Position numbers and translations under genes: made by a program. From positions 1-39,368 of the forward strand of contig JAHFUS010000039.1 in the NCBI GenBank assembly GCA_023264975.1: a stretch of DNA of 39,368 bases, written 5' to 3'. How positions within the stretch are numbered: position 1 is the first letter of the stretch; each line of letters begins with the position of its first letter. The stretch is from Actinomycetes bacterium. Lineage in GTDB: Bacteria; Actinomycetota; Acidimicrobiia; Acidimicrobiales; GCA-2861595. Of this stretch, positions 3,546-9,177 are shown piece by piece. The notes beneath the pieces are model-generated. The model saw nothing but the letters and a program-made list of their open reading frames with translations. It was not told the origin of the DNA and did not search any database.

Positions 3546-4039
3546 CGCGCCTCAGCGACAGGGAGCATCGCTACGCCTCCTACGGCGTGGCCTGGGCAGT
3601 GCTGTGGTCCGTCGTCGTGTGGGCGCCGTCGTTCGACGAGCGGGCGGCGGTCGCCCTTTGCGGGATCGGCCTCGCCATGGCCTTCCTCCTGGCCATCGCG
3701 GTTAAGCGGCGCCAGCGCCTCTTCACCGGCCTGGCGTGCATACTCCTCGCCTTCGGGCCGTGGGGGATGGCCTGGGTGATCGGCCTGCCGTTCCTCCTGC
3801 TGGCTGCCTGGCTGGCGCTCAAGTCGAACCGCCTCGGGCCGGTCACGGAGCCGGAGCTCGACGAGAACGGCGGGATGGTCGAACACCCCGTCGTCGCGGC
3901 CCGGGTGCGGCCGGCCCGGACGTCGCGCCGGCGCCGGCATGCCGCCGAAGGCGACGGTCCGGCGCCGGACGGCTCCGGAGCACCCCGCACCCCACCACCC
4001 CGGAGCAAGCGCTACACCCCGCCGCAGGGCCCCCGATGA
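3542..4039 (+). CDS. Hypothetical small membrane protein
   Basis: A 165-residue predicted integral membrane protein of unknown function. Three or four hydrophobic segments are visible: YGVAWAVLWSVVVWAP (about 12-28), AAVALCGIGLAMAFLLAIAV (about 34-53), and LFTGLACILLAFGPWGMAW running into VIGLPFLLLAAWLAL (about 60-93). The C-terminal half is a charged, proline- and arginine-rich cytoplasmic tail (RPARTSRRRRHAAEGDGP, PPRSKRYTPPQGPR). The tail resembles those of small actinobacterial membrane proteins of unknown role. The GTG start overlaps the upstream stop by 4 nt, and its own TGA overlaps the next ATG by 4 nt. Confidence 0.65.
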   Translation: MTRLSDREHRYASYGVAWAVLWSVVVWAPSFDERAAVALCGIGLAMAFLLAIAVKRRQRLFTGLACILLAFGPWGMAWVIGLPFLLLAAWLALKSNRLGPVTEPELDENGGMVEHPVVAARVRPARTSRRRRHAAEGDGPAPDGSGAPRTPPPRSKRYTPPQGPR

Positions 4040-4182
4040 CGTCGAACCGGCCCATGGGCCCGCCCGAACGCGCCGGCGTCGCCCAAATCGTCCCCTTCGC
4101 GTGCGCCCCCGCAGGTCAGACGACCAGAAGAGTCGAATATTCCGAGGTTCGCACGCGTCTCTCTAGGGCAAAGGTCGAATGA
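4036..4182 (+). CDS. Possible 48-aa bridging ORF upstream of the ECF sigma gene
   Basis: A 48-codon frame starting MTSNRPMGPPERAGVAQ, joined by ATGA overlaps to the membrane protein upstream and to the sigma factor downstream. I recognise no domain. The second half uses codons that are rare in this genome (AGA AGA, TAT, TCT, AGG). So it could be a real small protein, a leader whose translation is coupled to sigma synthesis, or simply intergenic DNA carrying the AAAGG ribosome-binding site of the sigma gene. The double overlap is the only positive evidence. Confidence 0.35.
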   Translation: MTSNRPMGPPERAGVAQIVPFACAPAGQTTRRVEYSEVRTRLSRAKVE

Positions 4183-4661
4183 CCTCGTTCGAGGACTTCC
4201 ACCGATCGAAGGCCAAGCATGCCCTCCACTATGCGCGCGCGATCCTTGGCGCGGACTCCGCTGAGGACGTCTGCCAAGAGGCTTGGTTCAAAGCCTGGCG
4301 CGCCTGGGGTTCCGCCGATCCCGCCAAGCTGGACACATGGCTCCTGGCCATCGTCCGCAACTGCTGCTTCGAACGGCTCCGCTCCAACCGGCCCGTCGCC
4401 GTCCTCGCCGAGGACGACGCCTCGCCCGTCCCCCCGCCCGACGAGGTCGTCGTCGCTGCCATGGAGATGGCAGCCGCATGGGTCCTCCTCCAGCGTCTCT
4501 CCCCACCCCTTCGTGAGGCCCTCTGGCTGCGTGAGGTCATGGACCTCTCGTACGCCGAGATCGCCGAGGTCCAGCACGTGCCGCAGGGCACGGTGATGTC
4601 GCGCCTGTACGCAGCCCGCCGCAAGGCGAGCCGGCTGCTCGCATCGAGGCGTTTGACGTGA
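4179..4661 (+). CDS. ECF-type RNA polymerase sigma factor
   Basis: A 160-residue sigma-70 factor with only regions 2 and 4. Region 2 spans about 10-70 (YARAILGADSAEDVCQEAWF, then LDTWLLAIVRNCCFERLRS). Region 4 spans about 103-155: LSPPLREALWLREVMDLSYA, followed by the helix-turn-helix EIAEVQHVPQGTVMSRLYAA. It would direct RNA polymerase to a small regulon. AAAGG lies upstream of the ATG. Its stop overlaps the start of the downstream anti-sigma fusion by 4 nt, the usual coupling for ECF/anti-sigma pairs, so it is almost certainly held inactive by that protein. Confidence 0.93.
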   Translation: MTSFEDFHRSKAKHALHYARAILGADSAEDVCQEAWFKAWRAWGSADPAKLDTWLLAIVRNCCFERLRSNRPVAVLAEDDASPVPPPDEVVVAAMEMAAAWVLLQRLSPPLREALWLREVMDLSYAEIAEVQHVPQGTVMSRLYAARRKASRLLASRRLT

Positions 4662-6085
4662 TGTTCCGCGCCCACCCAGGCAAGCTGGCGTTGGGGGCGT
4701 GGTTCGACGGCGAAGGACCAGATCGCGTCGGCGCCCATGTCCTGCGCTGCTCCCGCTGCCAGCGCCACGTGTCCGAGCTGTCCCGCCTCCGGTCATGGCT
4801 GCGCACCCAGCCGTTCGTCGCCATGGGCGAGGACAATCGGGTCCGCGAGGCGGCACCACCGGCGCACGGCAAGAAGCCGATCGTCGTCCTCGCCGCTCTG
4901 CTCGCGGCGTTCCTGGTCGTGGCCGACAAGGCCGACGTGCCGCGCCAGCTCACCGCTTCGGCCCCGAGGGCCACGACCACGACGGCCGCCGCCGCGGCTG
5001 CCGCCGGCGCCGAGGAGCCGCCGACCACCGTCGCCGCCGAGGCGCCCGCCGCCGAGCCCGAAGCGGCTCCGGCGGCCGACCACGCGCCCCGCCTCCAGCC
5101 GTCCACGTCCGACGCCGGCACGGTGTCCCAGCAGGCACTGGCCCGGGCCCGTCAACCCAGTGCCACCCAGCCGCTGCGCCTGGGCGTGATCGTGCCCACC
5201 CGCGGCACCTCGGCCGCCGAGGGCACCGAGGTGGCCGAGGTCGTTCGACAGCGGGTCGCCGCAGCCAACGCGGCCGGTGGCGTCGCGGGCGTACCCGTGG
5301 AGCTCGGGGTGGCCGCCGCCGAGGACGCCGCCGCTGTCGCCGCGCTTGTCAGCCGGGCCACCGTCCTGGTCGGCGGGTTCGGCGCCGAGGCCCCCCAGGG
5401 CATCCCGTGGCTGCTCCCAGCCGACCCGGCCATCGCCGGCGACAGCGTCATCCCGGCAGAGTCGCCCGCCCGATCGGCCGGCATCCAGCTCGCCTCCCTC
5501 CTGCGCAAGCAGGGACTCACCGGCACCATCGGAGTGATCGTCGGACCCGGGCCCGACGCCGCCCTGGCCGGCGGCCTGGCCGCGAAGGCCAGCACGACCA
5601 CGGTCAACGCCCAGGAGTCGGGCAACTGCGACCGGGAGGTCGCCACGCTGGCCCGCTCGGGGGTCGTCGCCCTGGCCATCGCCGGCAGTCCCGATCTCGC
5701 CGCCAAGTGCATGCGGGCCGCATTCCGTGCCCTCTGGCGCCCCATCTTCGGCACCGTGCTCGCCCCCTCGGCGGCGTACGCCGGCCTCCAGTCCATGCCC
5801 GAGGCCATCGGCGCCCGCACCGTGCTGGGCCTGCCGTGGCCCACGTCGGCCGCCCCCGGCGCGGCCCGCTTCCGGTCCACCACCGAATCGCTGTCGTACC
5901 GGGCGCTCGTGTCCTACGCCGCCACCGAGCTGGCGATCGATGTGGCCCGCCGCCAGGGCGGGGTGTCGCTTGAGTCGGTCGAGGCGGGCATCTGGCGCAA
6001 CGACCTCATCGACCTCACCGGCCTCACAAGCCGGGCCAACACCCTCGTGGTGGCCTTCCTCGGGACGTGGTTGATCGCCGGCTAG
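4658..6085 (+). CDS. Predicted ligand-sensing transmembrane anti-sigma factor (zinc finger + periplasmic-binding domain)
   Basis: A 475-residue protein in three parts. Residues 1-60 are a short anti-sigma zinc-finger-like domain with H27-x3-C31-x2-C34 (HVLRCSRC), plus H6 as a possible further ligand. Residues 75-89 (IVVLAALLAAFLVVA) form one short membrane segment. A low-complexity Ala/Thr/Pro linker (about 95-168) leads to residues about 170-475, which resemble type I periplasmic binding proteins of the Leu/Ile/Val receptor family: LRLGVIVPTRGTSAAEGTEV, then NAAGGVAGVPVEL, close to the family's NaaGGvnGrpi signature. Inference: ligand binding outside controls release of the ECF sigma factor inside. 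Start GTG 4658 or ATG 4661. Its stop overlaps the convergent TetR stop. Confidence 0.8.
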   Translation: MMFRAHPGKLALGAWFDGEGPDRVGAHVLRCSRCQRHVSELSRLRSWLRTQPFVAMGEDNRVREAAPPAHGKKPIVVLAALLAAFLVVADKADVPRQLTASAPRATTTTAAAAAAAGAEEPPTTVAAEAPAAEPEAAPAADHAPRLQPSTSDAGTVSQQALARARQPSATQPLRLGVIVPTRGTSAAEGTEVAEVVRQRVAAANAAGGVAGVPVELGVAAAEDAAAVAALVSRATVLVGGFGAEAPQGIPWLLPADPAIAGDSVIPAESPARSAGIQLASLLRKQGLTGTIGVIVGPGPDAALAGGLAAKASTTTVNAQESGNCDREVATLARSGVVALAIAGSPDLAAKCMRAAFRALWRPIFGTVLAPSAAYAGLQSMPEAIGARTVLGLPWPTSAAPGAARFRSTTESLSYRALVSYAATELAIDVARRQGGVSLESVEAGIWRNDLIDLTGLTSRANTLVVAFLGTWLIAG

Positions 6086-6747: not shown

Positions 6748-6765
6748 GTCTACCAAGTGGTAGAC
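6748..6765. promoter_or_regulatory. Palindromic operator, probable TetR binding site
   Basis: GTCTACCAAGTGGTAGAC is a perfect 8-bp inverted repeat with a 2-bp centre. It lies in the 57-bp gap between the divergent TetR and acyl-reductase genes and ends 9 nt before the ATG at 6775, just ahead of an AGGGG ribosome-binding site. A further half-site, ATGGTAGA, lies at 6723-6730. Size and symmetry fit a TetR dimer site. Confidence 0.75.
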
Positions 6766-6774
6766 AGGGGCCCG

Positions 6775-9177
6775 ATGATCACCAGCGCACTGGAGGGCAA
6801 GCGCATAGGCGTCACCGGGGCCACCGGCTTTCTGGGTACCGCCCTAGTTGAGCGCCTGCTGCGGGTCGTGCCCGGCTGCGAGGTCGTGGTGGTGGTGCGG
6901 GCGGGCAGGCGCACGCCCGCCGCCCAGCGCGTTAAGCGGGAGATCCTGCGCAACGACTGCTTCGACCGCCTGCGCCAGCAGTGGGGCACGGGCTTCGACG
7001 CCGAGATGGACCGCCGCCTCAAGACGGTCGCAGGCGATGTGTCGACCGAGGGCCTCGGCCTCGACGACGAGGACCGGGCCCTGTTCCGCTCGTGCGACAT
7101 CGTCGTGCACTCAGCCGCCTCGGTGAGCTTCGACTCGCCCCTCGACGCCGCCGTCGAGGTCAACCTGCTGGGCGGTAGCCGCGTGGCCGAGGTGCTGGGC
7201 GACGACCGTGCGCCCGGTGACCCGGTCCCCTACCTGGTGGCCGTGTCCACCGCCTACGTGGCGGGCACCCGCCGGGGCGAGTCCCCCGAGGCCCTGCTGC
7301 CCGACACACCGTTCGCCATCGACCTCGACTGGCAGGCCGAGGTTCACGCCGCCCGCCAGGCCCGCTCCGACGCCGAGGCCGAGAGCCGCCGGCCGGAACG
7401 GTTGACCCTGTTCGCCAAGGCGGCCCGCAGCGAGCTCGGAGCGGCCGGCGCCCCCCTGCTTGCCGACAAGCTGGAGAAGCTGCGCACCGAGTGGGTCCGC
7501 GAGCGCATGGTGCAGGCGGGCAAGTCCCGGGCCCACTCCCTCGGCTGGCCCGACGCCTACGCCTACACCAAGGCCCTGGGCGAGCGGGCCCTCCTGGCCA
7601 ACCGGGGCGACGTGCCCGTGTCCTTCGTACGCCCGTCGATCATCGAGTCCGCCCTGGCCGAGCCGAAGCCGGGCTGGATCCGCGGCTTCCGCATGGCCGA
7701 GCCCGTGATCATCAGCTACGGCCGGGGGCTGCTCAAGCAGTTCCCCGGCATCCCCGAGGGCGTGGTCGACGTGATCCCCGTCGACATGGTGGTGGCCGCC
7801 ATCATCGCCGTGGCCGCCCGTGGCCCACTTCCGGAAGGGCCCGACGTGGTGCAGGTGGCTTCGGGTCAACGAAACCCGCTGCGGTACAGGCGGCTGGTGA
7901 AGCTGGTGCAGACGTGGTTCGAGGAGCACCCGCTCTACGACACCGACGGACAGCCCATCGTCGTGCCGGAGTGGTCGTTCCCCGGCCGGGGCCGGGTGCA
8001 GCGCCAGCTCCAGCGGGCCACCACCGCCCTGTCCACCGCCGAGAAGGTCATCACCACCCTCCCCATCCGGGGCAAAAAGGCGCAGCTGTCGTCCCGCATC
8101 GAGGAGAAGCGCGAGCTCGCCGAACGGGCCCTCGGCTACGTGGAGCTGTACGGCGCCTACGCCGAGACCGAGGCCGTTTTCAAGATCGACCGCCTCCTCG
8201 CCCTGTTCGGGTCGCTCGACGACGCCGACAAGGCCACCTTCGCCTTCGACCCGATCGCCATCGACTGGGCCTACTTCGTGCAGGAGGTGCACCTCCCGTC
8301 GATCGTGGCCCAGGCGCGGGTCCGCACCACGCCGGGCAAGCGCAAGACAGCGTCGCGCTCCGACCGGGGCCGCAAGGCGGTGCTGTCCCCCGACCGCCAC
8401 ATCGCCGCCTTCGACCTGGAGAACACGCTCATCGCCTCCAACGTCGTGGAGAGCTACTCGTGGCTGGCCACCCGCCACCTCCCGGCCGACGAGCGGGTCC
8501 GCTTCGTGCTGCGCACCCTCCGGGAGGCGCCTACCCTCCTCGCCCTCGACCGCCGCGACCGCGGCGACTTCCTGCGCCACTTCTACCGCCGCTACGAGGG
8601 CGCCTCCCGCCAGCAGGTGGGCGACGACGCCTGGAACATGTTCTCCGACCTCATCCTGCGCAAGGCCTTCCCGGCCGGCATCCGCAGGGTGCGCGAGCAC
8701 CGCGCCCTCGGCCACCGCACGCTGCTCATCACCGGCGCACTCGACTTCGCCATCGAGCCCCTGCGCCCCCTGTTCGACGACATCGTGTGCGCCAAGCTGG
8801 GCACCGATTCCGACGGGCGGCTGACCGGCGAGCTGCTGACCGGCCCCCCCACCGGCGAGGCCCGCGCCCTGGTGATGGCCCGCTACGCCGAGGCCGAGGG
8901 GCTGTCGCTCACCGAGTCGGTGGCCTACGCCGACTCCGCGTCCGACCTGCCGATGCTGGAGGCGGTGGGCCATCCGGTCGCCGTCAACCCCGAAGCAAAG
9001 CTGGCCACCATCGCCCGCAAGCGGGGCTGGCACGTCGAGCAGTGGTCCAAGGCGCCCGGCGCCCCCCGCCCCCTGCTCCCCATCGGCCCCCTCCTCCACG
9101 TCCCCCGGGGCCGGTCCCGAGTAAATAACCACCGGAATCCGGTGGCTATTTCCTCGAAAGGTGGGGAGACAGGGTGA
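6775..9177 (+). CDS. Fatty acyl-CoA reductase-like SDR fused to a HAD-IB phosphatase-like domain
   Basis: An 800-residue two-domain protein. The N-terminal half resembles the 'male sterility'/fatty acyl-CoA reductase family (NAD_binding_4): GATGFLG cofactor loop at residues 15-21, VSTAYVAG, and catalytic YxxxK at Y262-K266 (YAYTK). Such enzymes reduce acyl thioesters to aldehydes or alcohols with NAD(P)H. From about residue 540 there is a HAD-IB domain: motif I is FDLENTL (nucleophile D547, but Glu at 549 where phosphatases have Asp), motif II is LLITGA, and motif IV is YADSASDLPML. In mycobacteria HAD-IB domains are found fused to PlsC, and a PlsC gene ends this cluster. ATG 6775 follows AGGGG. 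The last ~20 residues are encoded by a palindromic repeat. Confidence 0.85.
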   Translation: MITSALEGKRIGVTGATGFLGTALVERLLRVVPGCEVVVVVRAGRRTPAAQRVKREILRNDCFDRLRQQWGTGFDAEMDRRLKTVAGDVSTEGLGLDDEDRALFRSCDIVVHSAASVSFDSPLDAAVEVNLLGGSRVAEVLGDDRAPGDPVPYLVAVSTAYVAGTRRGESPEALLPDTPFAIDLDWQAEVHAARQARSDAEAESRRPERLTLFAKAARSELGAAGAPLLADKLEKLRTEWVRERMVQAGKSRAHSLGWPDAYAYTKALGERALLANRGDVPVSFVRPSIIESALAEPKPGWIRGFRMAEPVIISYGRGLLKQFPGIPEGVVDVIPVDMVVAAIIAVAARGPLPEGPDVVQVASGQRNPLRYRRLVKLVQTWFEEHPLYDTDGQPIVVPEWSFPGRGRVQRQLQRATTALSTAEKVITTLPIRGKKAQLSSRIEEKRELAERALGYVELYGAYAETEAVFKIDRLLALFGSLDDADKATFAFDPIAIDWAYFVQEVHLPSIVAQARVRTTPGKRKTASRSDRGRKAVLSPDRHIAAFDLENTLIASNVVESYSWLATRHLPADERVRFVLRTLREAPTLLALDRRDRGDFLRHFYRRYEGASRQQVGDDAWNMFSDLILRKAFPAGIRRVREHRALGHRTLLITGALDFAIEPLRPLFDDIVCAKLGTDSDGRLTGELLTGPPTGEARALVMARYAEAEGLSLTESVAYADSASDLPMLEAVGHPVAVNPEAKLATIARKRGWHVEQWSKAPGAPRPLLPIGPLLHVPRGRSRVNNHRNPVAISSKGGETG
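9118..9156. repeat. 39-nt palindromic repeat, variant core
   Basis: Third, divergent member of the 39-nt hairpin family seen at 11976 and 17578. It has the same length, the same left end (TCCCGAGTAAATA) and nearly the same right end (TATTTCCTCGAAAG), but a different core in which both arms have changed together (ACCACCGG with CCGGTGG, loop AAT). Two of 18 pairs do not match on this strand. It lies within the last codons of the acyl-reductase/HAD gene, just before the dehydrogenase start. Confidence 0.8.

Follow-up and report, generated by a model that had tools for sequence, protein, structure and literature searches.

A candidate ECF anti-sigma factor with a type I solute-binding-protein ectodomain in an actinobacterial lineage

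Introduction

Class I (ASDI) zinc anti-sigma factors, e.g. RsiW and ChrR, possess an N-terminal H-x3-C-x2-C motif, are co-encoded with an ECF sigma factor and often carry a membrane helix followed by C-terminal domains of varied kinds (PMC7406223). Proteolysis is the most frequent route by which membrane-bound anti-sigma factors release their sigma factors (reviewed in PMC8103513), and ligand sensing by such proteins has precedents. RsiV, a transmembrane anti-sigma factor of sigma-V and receptor for lysozyme, directly binds its inducer with its ectodomain and undergoes degradation through regulated proteolysis (PMC4183432, PMC5014341). RsgI of Clostridium thermocellum is a membrane anti-sigma factor with extracellular substrate-sensing domains, which has SigI-type sigma factors and biomass-sensing modules and is cleaved by RseP within its membrane helix (PMC12203970). 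For most membrane anti-sigma factors the signals are hard to guess from the sensor domains.

Here, we describe an ECF sigma factor gene and its partner in a stretch of 39,368 nucleotides from an Actinomycetes bacterium, the whole of which is referred to as the window. The partner shares the N-terminal zinc motif and the co-encoded sigma factor with the RsiW/ChrR-type proteins; unlike in these, its C-terminal sensor is predicted to be a complete type I solute-binding protein, and the sequence similarity of the zinc domains is weak. RsiV differs in having a protein ligand and an ectodomain without the solute-binding fold, RsgI in its sigma factors, sensing modules and cleavage by RseP. The fold over the whole ectodomain is that of LivJ, LivK and other Peripla_BP_6 proteins but, unlike LivJ and LivK, it is fused to a membrane anti-sigma domain and shortened to approximately 300 residues. 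Direct inducer-binding anti-sigma factors being already known, the new element is the complete type I solute-binding ectodomain. The initial annotation had stated that no characterised example was known, and in agreement with this the literature searched yielded no described fusion of a solute-binding protein with an anti-sigma factor, the supplement of PMC7406223, which could still list one, lying outside this search. The fusion is real and unusual.

Results

Sigma factor, partner protein and zinc domain

The features of the locus are compiled in Table 1. Sigma70_r2 (residues 14-71, E 5e-13) and Sigma70_r4_2 (residues 102-149, E 5.5e-14) both match the sigma factor above the Pfam cut-offs and no region 3 match was obtained in the same search, so that the protein has the domain content of an ECF sigma factor, as initially annotated for this gene; the coordinates given there for the locus are exact. 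Its gene overlaps the partner gene by four bases (4658-4661). GTG 4658 and ATG 4661 are equally likely starts of the latter, ATG 4661 giving a TGATG overlap.

Table 1. Features of the sigma/anti-sigma locus in window coordinates
Feature	Position	Strand	Basis
Promoter-like element of the sigma gene, GAATATTC-N13-CGTC (putative -35 and -10)	4135..4159	+	Conserved before the sigma gene in 6/6 family genomes
ECF sigma factor, 160 aa, regions 2 and 4	4179..4661	+	Pfam Sigma70_r2 and Sigma70_r4_2, TIGR02937 sigma70-ECF; 96-49% identical orthologs adjoining orthologous anti-sigma genes
Predicted transmembrane anti-sigma factor with type I solute-binding-protein ectodomain, 475 aa from GTG 4658	4658..6085	+	Layout kept in three families
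Predicted anti-sigma domain, residues 1-55, zinc motif H27-x3-C31-x2-C34 (4736-4759), H6 possible fourth ligand	4658..4822	+	Residue invariance; PDB profile matches
Single transmembrane helix, residues 74-92, basic residues before it (N-terminus inside)	4877..4933	+	Hydropathy, model helix, alignment
Ala/Thr/Pro-rich linker, residues 93-171, predicted disordered	4934..5170	+	pLDDT ~30 for residues 84-169; 8-43% ortholog identity
Predicted type I solute-binding-protein domain, residues 172-475, two invariant cysteines	5171..6082	+	AF2 model, Foldseek, VIA, cysteine count

The HVLRCSRC zinc-finger motif named in the initial annotation is present as H27-C31-C34, and H6, H27, C31 and C34 are unchanged in all 12 related zinc domains aligned. 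Together with the modelled helices 9-16, 22-30 and 32-50 this gives an N-terminal helical domain with the H-x3-C-x2-C motif of class I zinc anti-sigma factors. The Pfam family zf-HC2 does not match the window protein and matches five of the 12 relatives marginally (best E 0.1). Searching the PDB with a profile of the 12 domains gave zinc anti-sigma or anti-sigma-like proteins as its six best matches, namely DdvA, RsiW, a CHAT-domain protein with a DdvA-like N-terminus, the Mycobacterium tuberculosis structure 3hug and ChrR twice, with weak E-values of 0.0055-0.55, suggesting a weak sequence resemblance to known anti-sigma factors. In all three families the sigma gene adjoins the anti-sigma gene at each of the complete loci examined, and this co-encoding together with the profile matches supports the anti-sigma assignment. 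As known for this class of proteins, the zinc domain would bind and inhibit the sigma factor.

Two genomes of the window's family, G002 and G003, additionally encode free-standing 68-residue paralogs of the zinc domain that lack both the membrane helix and the receptor (L008:1489-1692 and L009:1489-1692). A related sigma gene was not detected by tblastn in the 3-kb stretch around them, and they are possibly soluble second anti-sigma factors. In genome G047 (L024:887-2496), a related ECF sigma factor of 48% identity is accompanied by the same zinc domain attached to a Ser/Thr-rich ectodomain without the receptor fold; relatives thus appear to exchange the sensor behind a common zinc domain.

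The one membrane helix initially annotated was confirmed by hydropathy: residues 74-92 form the sole hydrophobic segment, with a mean Kyte-Doolittle value of 2.16 and every other window of the profile below 1.7. Judged by what is known of the family, the N-terminus would be cytoplasmic and the receptor located outside. Helix and receptor are separated by approximately 80 residues which, according to model and alignment, are disordered, poorly conserved and variable in length.

The ectodomain is predicted to adopt a complete type I solute-binding fold

The sequence NAAGGVAGVP, on which the initial reading of a Leu/Ile/Val-binding-type receptor had been based, corresponds to residues 204-213 of the anti-sigma protein. 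Peripla_BP_6 was matched in nine of nine family members (best E 8.7e-10), the window protein taken singly scoring 24.2 bits, below the Pfam cut-off of 31.7. Its presence in all nine argues for this signature being more than chance, and fold prediction settles the matter. An AlphaFold2 model of the ectodomain, built from the sequences of this family alone and unreliable in the last 24 residues, reached a pLDDT of 79.8 and a pTM of 0.71. Foldseek matched it to 3hut with an E-value of 6.2e-12 and a TM-score of 0.64, and VIA aligned 284 of 304 residues to the same structure (Z 21.2, rmsd 3.6) and gave Z 19.8 against the LivJ-type structure 2liv. The full-length model, in which the ectodomain is less well predicted, had found the right family with poor superposition (rmsd 11-16), which was resolved by using the ectodomain-only model for fold matching. 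The whole ectodomain is thus predicted to form both lobes of a complete type I solute-binding domain, bearing out the fold initially annotated. All nine ectodomains contain two equivalent cysteines (C324, 5627-5629; C351, 5708-5710), which would fit a disulfide in a domain located outside the cytoplasm.

The ligand pocket differs from that of LivJ. In LivJ, Ser79 and Thr102 are amino-acid contacts, and Tyr202 and Glu226 are the lobe 2 positions. The profile-profile alignment to LivJ/LivK is reliable in lobe 1 only, to which our statements on the pocket are confined. The column of Ser79 is Ala, Val or Thr in nine of nine ectodomains and the PAAT motif is missing in all, the loop region following the Ser79 position being shortened compared to LivJ; the Thr102 equivalent, in a column that depends on the alignment, is probably lost in all nine as well. 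In comparison, two of three ordinary solute-binding proteins taken from the same order retain Ser at the Ser79 position along with PAAT or PTAT. With the Ser79 equivalent lost and the PAAT loop absent, a ligand is probably not recognised in the manner in which LivJ recognises leucine, and a free branched-chain amino acid is probably not the ligand of the receptor, if it has one. Of the branched-chain amino-acid-type receptor initially annotated only the type of fold is retained, the specificity being unsupported.

Distribution and conservation

Within the window's family (f1), five genomes, the window's own included, encode full-length orthologs of 72-53% identity, while in a sixth the anti-sigma gene is split between contigs. 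Further full-length orthologs come from two other families, f45 (genomes G203 and G282), which belongs to the same order, and f151 (G806 and G818), which belongs to a different order within the class. The contigs of the relatives are titled as Acidimicrobiales or Actinobacteria MAGs, one as Acidobacteriota. A phylum-wide sample of 396 genomes contained no match to the fusion apart from the window's own genome, suggesting that it is rare outside its class, and viral contigs contained no relative.

Ortholog identity amounts to 50-78% for the ectodomain, comparable to the 42-93% for the zinc domain, and to 8-43% for the far less conserved linker, and dN/dS for ectodomain, zinc domain and linker against the nearest relative to 0.23, 0.11 and 0.49, respectively. 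Judged from the aligned genes, the ectodomain is under functional constraint (purifying selection). A chance read-through or an assembly artefact joining the two parts is refuted, and we regard it as virtually impossible, by a frame open without stops in nine independent assemblies of three families and by the purifying selection; no point in its favour was found.

A shared promoter-like motif points to a putative autoregulated regulon

ECF promoters typically carry CGTC as their -10 element, with a spacer of 16 bases between it and the -35 element. In six of six f1 genomes the motif GAATAWTC-N13-CGTC precedes the sigma gene with fixed spacing and near its start codon. These genomes hold eight exact copies, six at the sigma genes and two upstream of coiled-coil genes, and a reversed-pattern control gave no exact match in them. 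The two latter copies (G004 and G005) are located directly after the anti-sigma gene and 140-157 bases before a gene whose product spans the membrane once and is predicted to have a long coiled coil outside the cytoplasm. Allowing one mismatch adds three sites (one in G002, two in G003), all at most 160 bases from the starts of homologs of this gene. The window's genome yielded no coiled-coil target among its one-mismatch matches; its coiled-coil genes have two-mismatch sites, GAATTTTC-N13-TGTC and GAATAATT-N13-CATC, in comparable position, as have those of its congener G001. In both genomes the coiled-coil genes sit at contig ends; for the window's genome this suggests that repeats break the assembly.

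As the motif is common to the sigma gene and one distinctive gene family in six genomes, we predict an autoregulated regulon. We consider this sharing good evidence, the two-mismatch sites being weak by themselves, and the sigma factor probably governs a set of fibrous membrane coiled-coil proteins. No Pfam family matched these proteins above the cut-off, and in the PDB they mainly matched coiled coils or long helices. No such motif was recognised by eye before the f45 and f151 sigma genes, and since both motif and gene neighbourhood differ in these families, the predicted regulon is limited to f1.

One-pass membrane protein genes with long SIN/SID-repeat coiled coils are arranged in tandem at L059:7220-9803 and L060:837-3441. 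A HAD-type phosphatase gene of the window's genome (L097 near 3700-4500, contig G000:C86) carries a one-mismatch copy of the motif, on a contig starting with the remnant of a coiled-coil gene, and in G005 a similar HAD gene adjoins the coiled-coil cluster (L060:6922-7674).

Discussion

On the basis of the architecture, fold, conservation and recurrent motif computed here we propose a model of which three elements are postulated: the ligand, whether its binding or its loss is the signal, and release by proteolysis. The zinc-containing N-terminal domain would hold the co-translated ECF sigma factor inactive in the cytoplasm, while the two-lobed receptor domain outside the membrane would bind a soluble ligand. 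Ligand binding, or its loss, might alter the exposure of the linker to an extracytoplasmic protease, upon which a site-2-type protease would cut the membrane helix, resulting in release of the sigma factor. The free sigma factor would then activate its own operon via GAATAWTC-N13-CGTC and, through similar sites, the clustered genes that encode the membrane-anchored coiled-coil proteins outside the cytoplasm. We favour this reading as a whole, i.e. a ligand-sensing transmembrane anti-sigma module with proteolytic release and a coiled-coil regulon, with somewhat better than even confidence, its proteolytic step taken separately being about an even bet.

The initial annotation had envisaged a direct ligand-gated switch of transcription without proteolysis. 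The full receptor ectodomain of that proposal is borne out by the predicted fold; the proteolysis-free part is put in question by the linker and by genes of the M50/site-2 protease family. The latter are present in the window's genome as in all 14 control genomes, and since such proteases occur in nearly all bacteria they constitute weak evidence for proteolysis; a site-1 protease was not identified in our search. The variability and predicted disorder of the linker argue for its accessibility to a protease, and the length of this poorly conserved stretch between receptor and helix makes rigid transmission of a conformational change unlikely. Lobe closure, perhaps within a dimer, might nevertheless rearrange the helix so that the sigma factor is dropped reversibly. 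Class C GPCR ectodomains, which act by dimer rearrangement, have the same fold and are among the structural matches of the window ectodomain, the domain is two-lobed and complete, and its putative cleft residues are conserved. Weighed against the poor mechanical coupling expected of such a length-variable linker and the prevalence of proteolysis in membrane-bound anti-sigma factors (PMC8103513), we consider direct gating improbable, and slightly more so an anti-sigma factor gated reversibly within one protein and independently of any protease, kinase or further protein, which if true would be a transcriptional counterpart of class C receptor signalling.

The altered pocket, with Ser79 and probably Thr102 lost, could also mean that the ectodomain binds a protein or nothing. 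Its partner might then be, for instance, an ABC transporter, some protein of the envelope or the coiled-coil proteins, or it might act as a scaffold, instead of binding a small ligand. Loss of the canonical Ser79 contact with shortening of the following loop region would fit this, as would the f151 loci, in which the anti-sigma gene adjoins convergent genes for a Liv-type ABC transporter. However, both lobes are kept and conserved, W251, D256, E268, S371 and Y374, which possibly line the cleft, are invariant in seven full-length orthologs, and the transporter neighbourhood is not conserved in f1 or f45. The transporter neighbour gives a hint, within f151, of a tie to solute uptake, and we judge an ectodomain that binds a protein partner or serves as a scaffold to be as improbable as direct gating.

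If the ligand-sensing module holds, ECF systems would have recruited solute-binding proteins as sensors, like other receptor classes. The fold of the sensor lends itself to direct ligand screening, the predicted promoter and targets provide a ready reporter, and the module could serve as a natural chassis for biosensors.

In f151, the Liv-type ABC genes (L063:6615-10356) encode two ATPases fused to each other and likewise two fused permeases. In the window itself, the gene at 6757-9177 encodes a male-sterility-type fatty acyl-CoA reductase domain joined to a HAD phosphatase domain; it is adjoined by a divergent TetR regulator gene, and this neighbourhood is kept in G001-G003.
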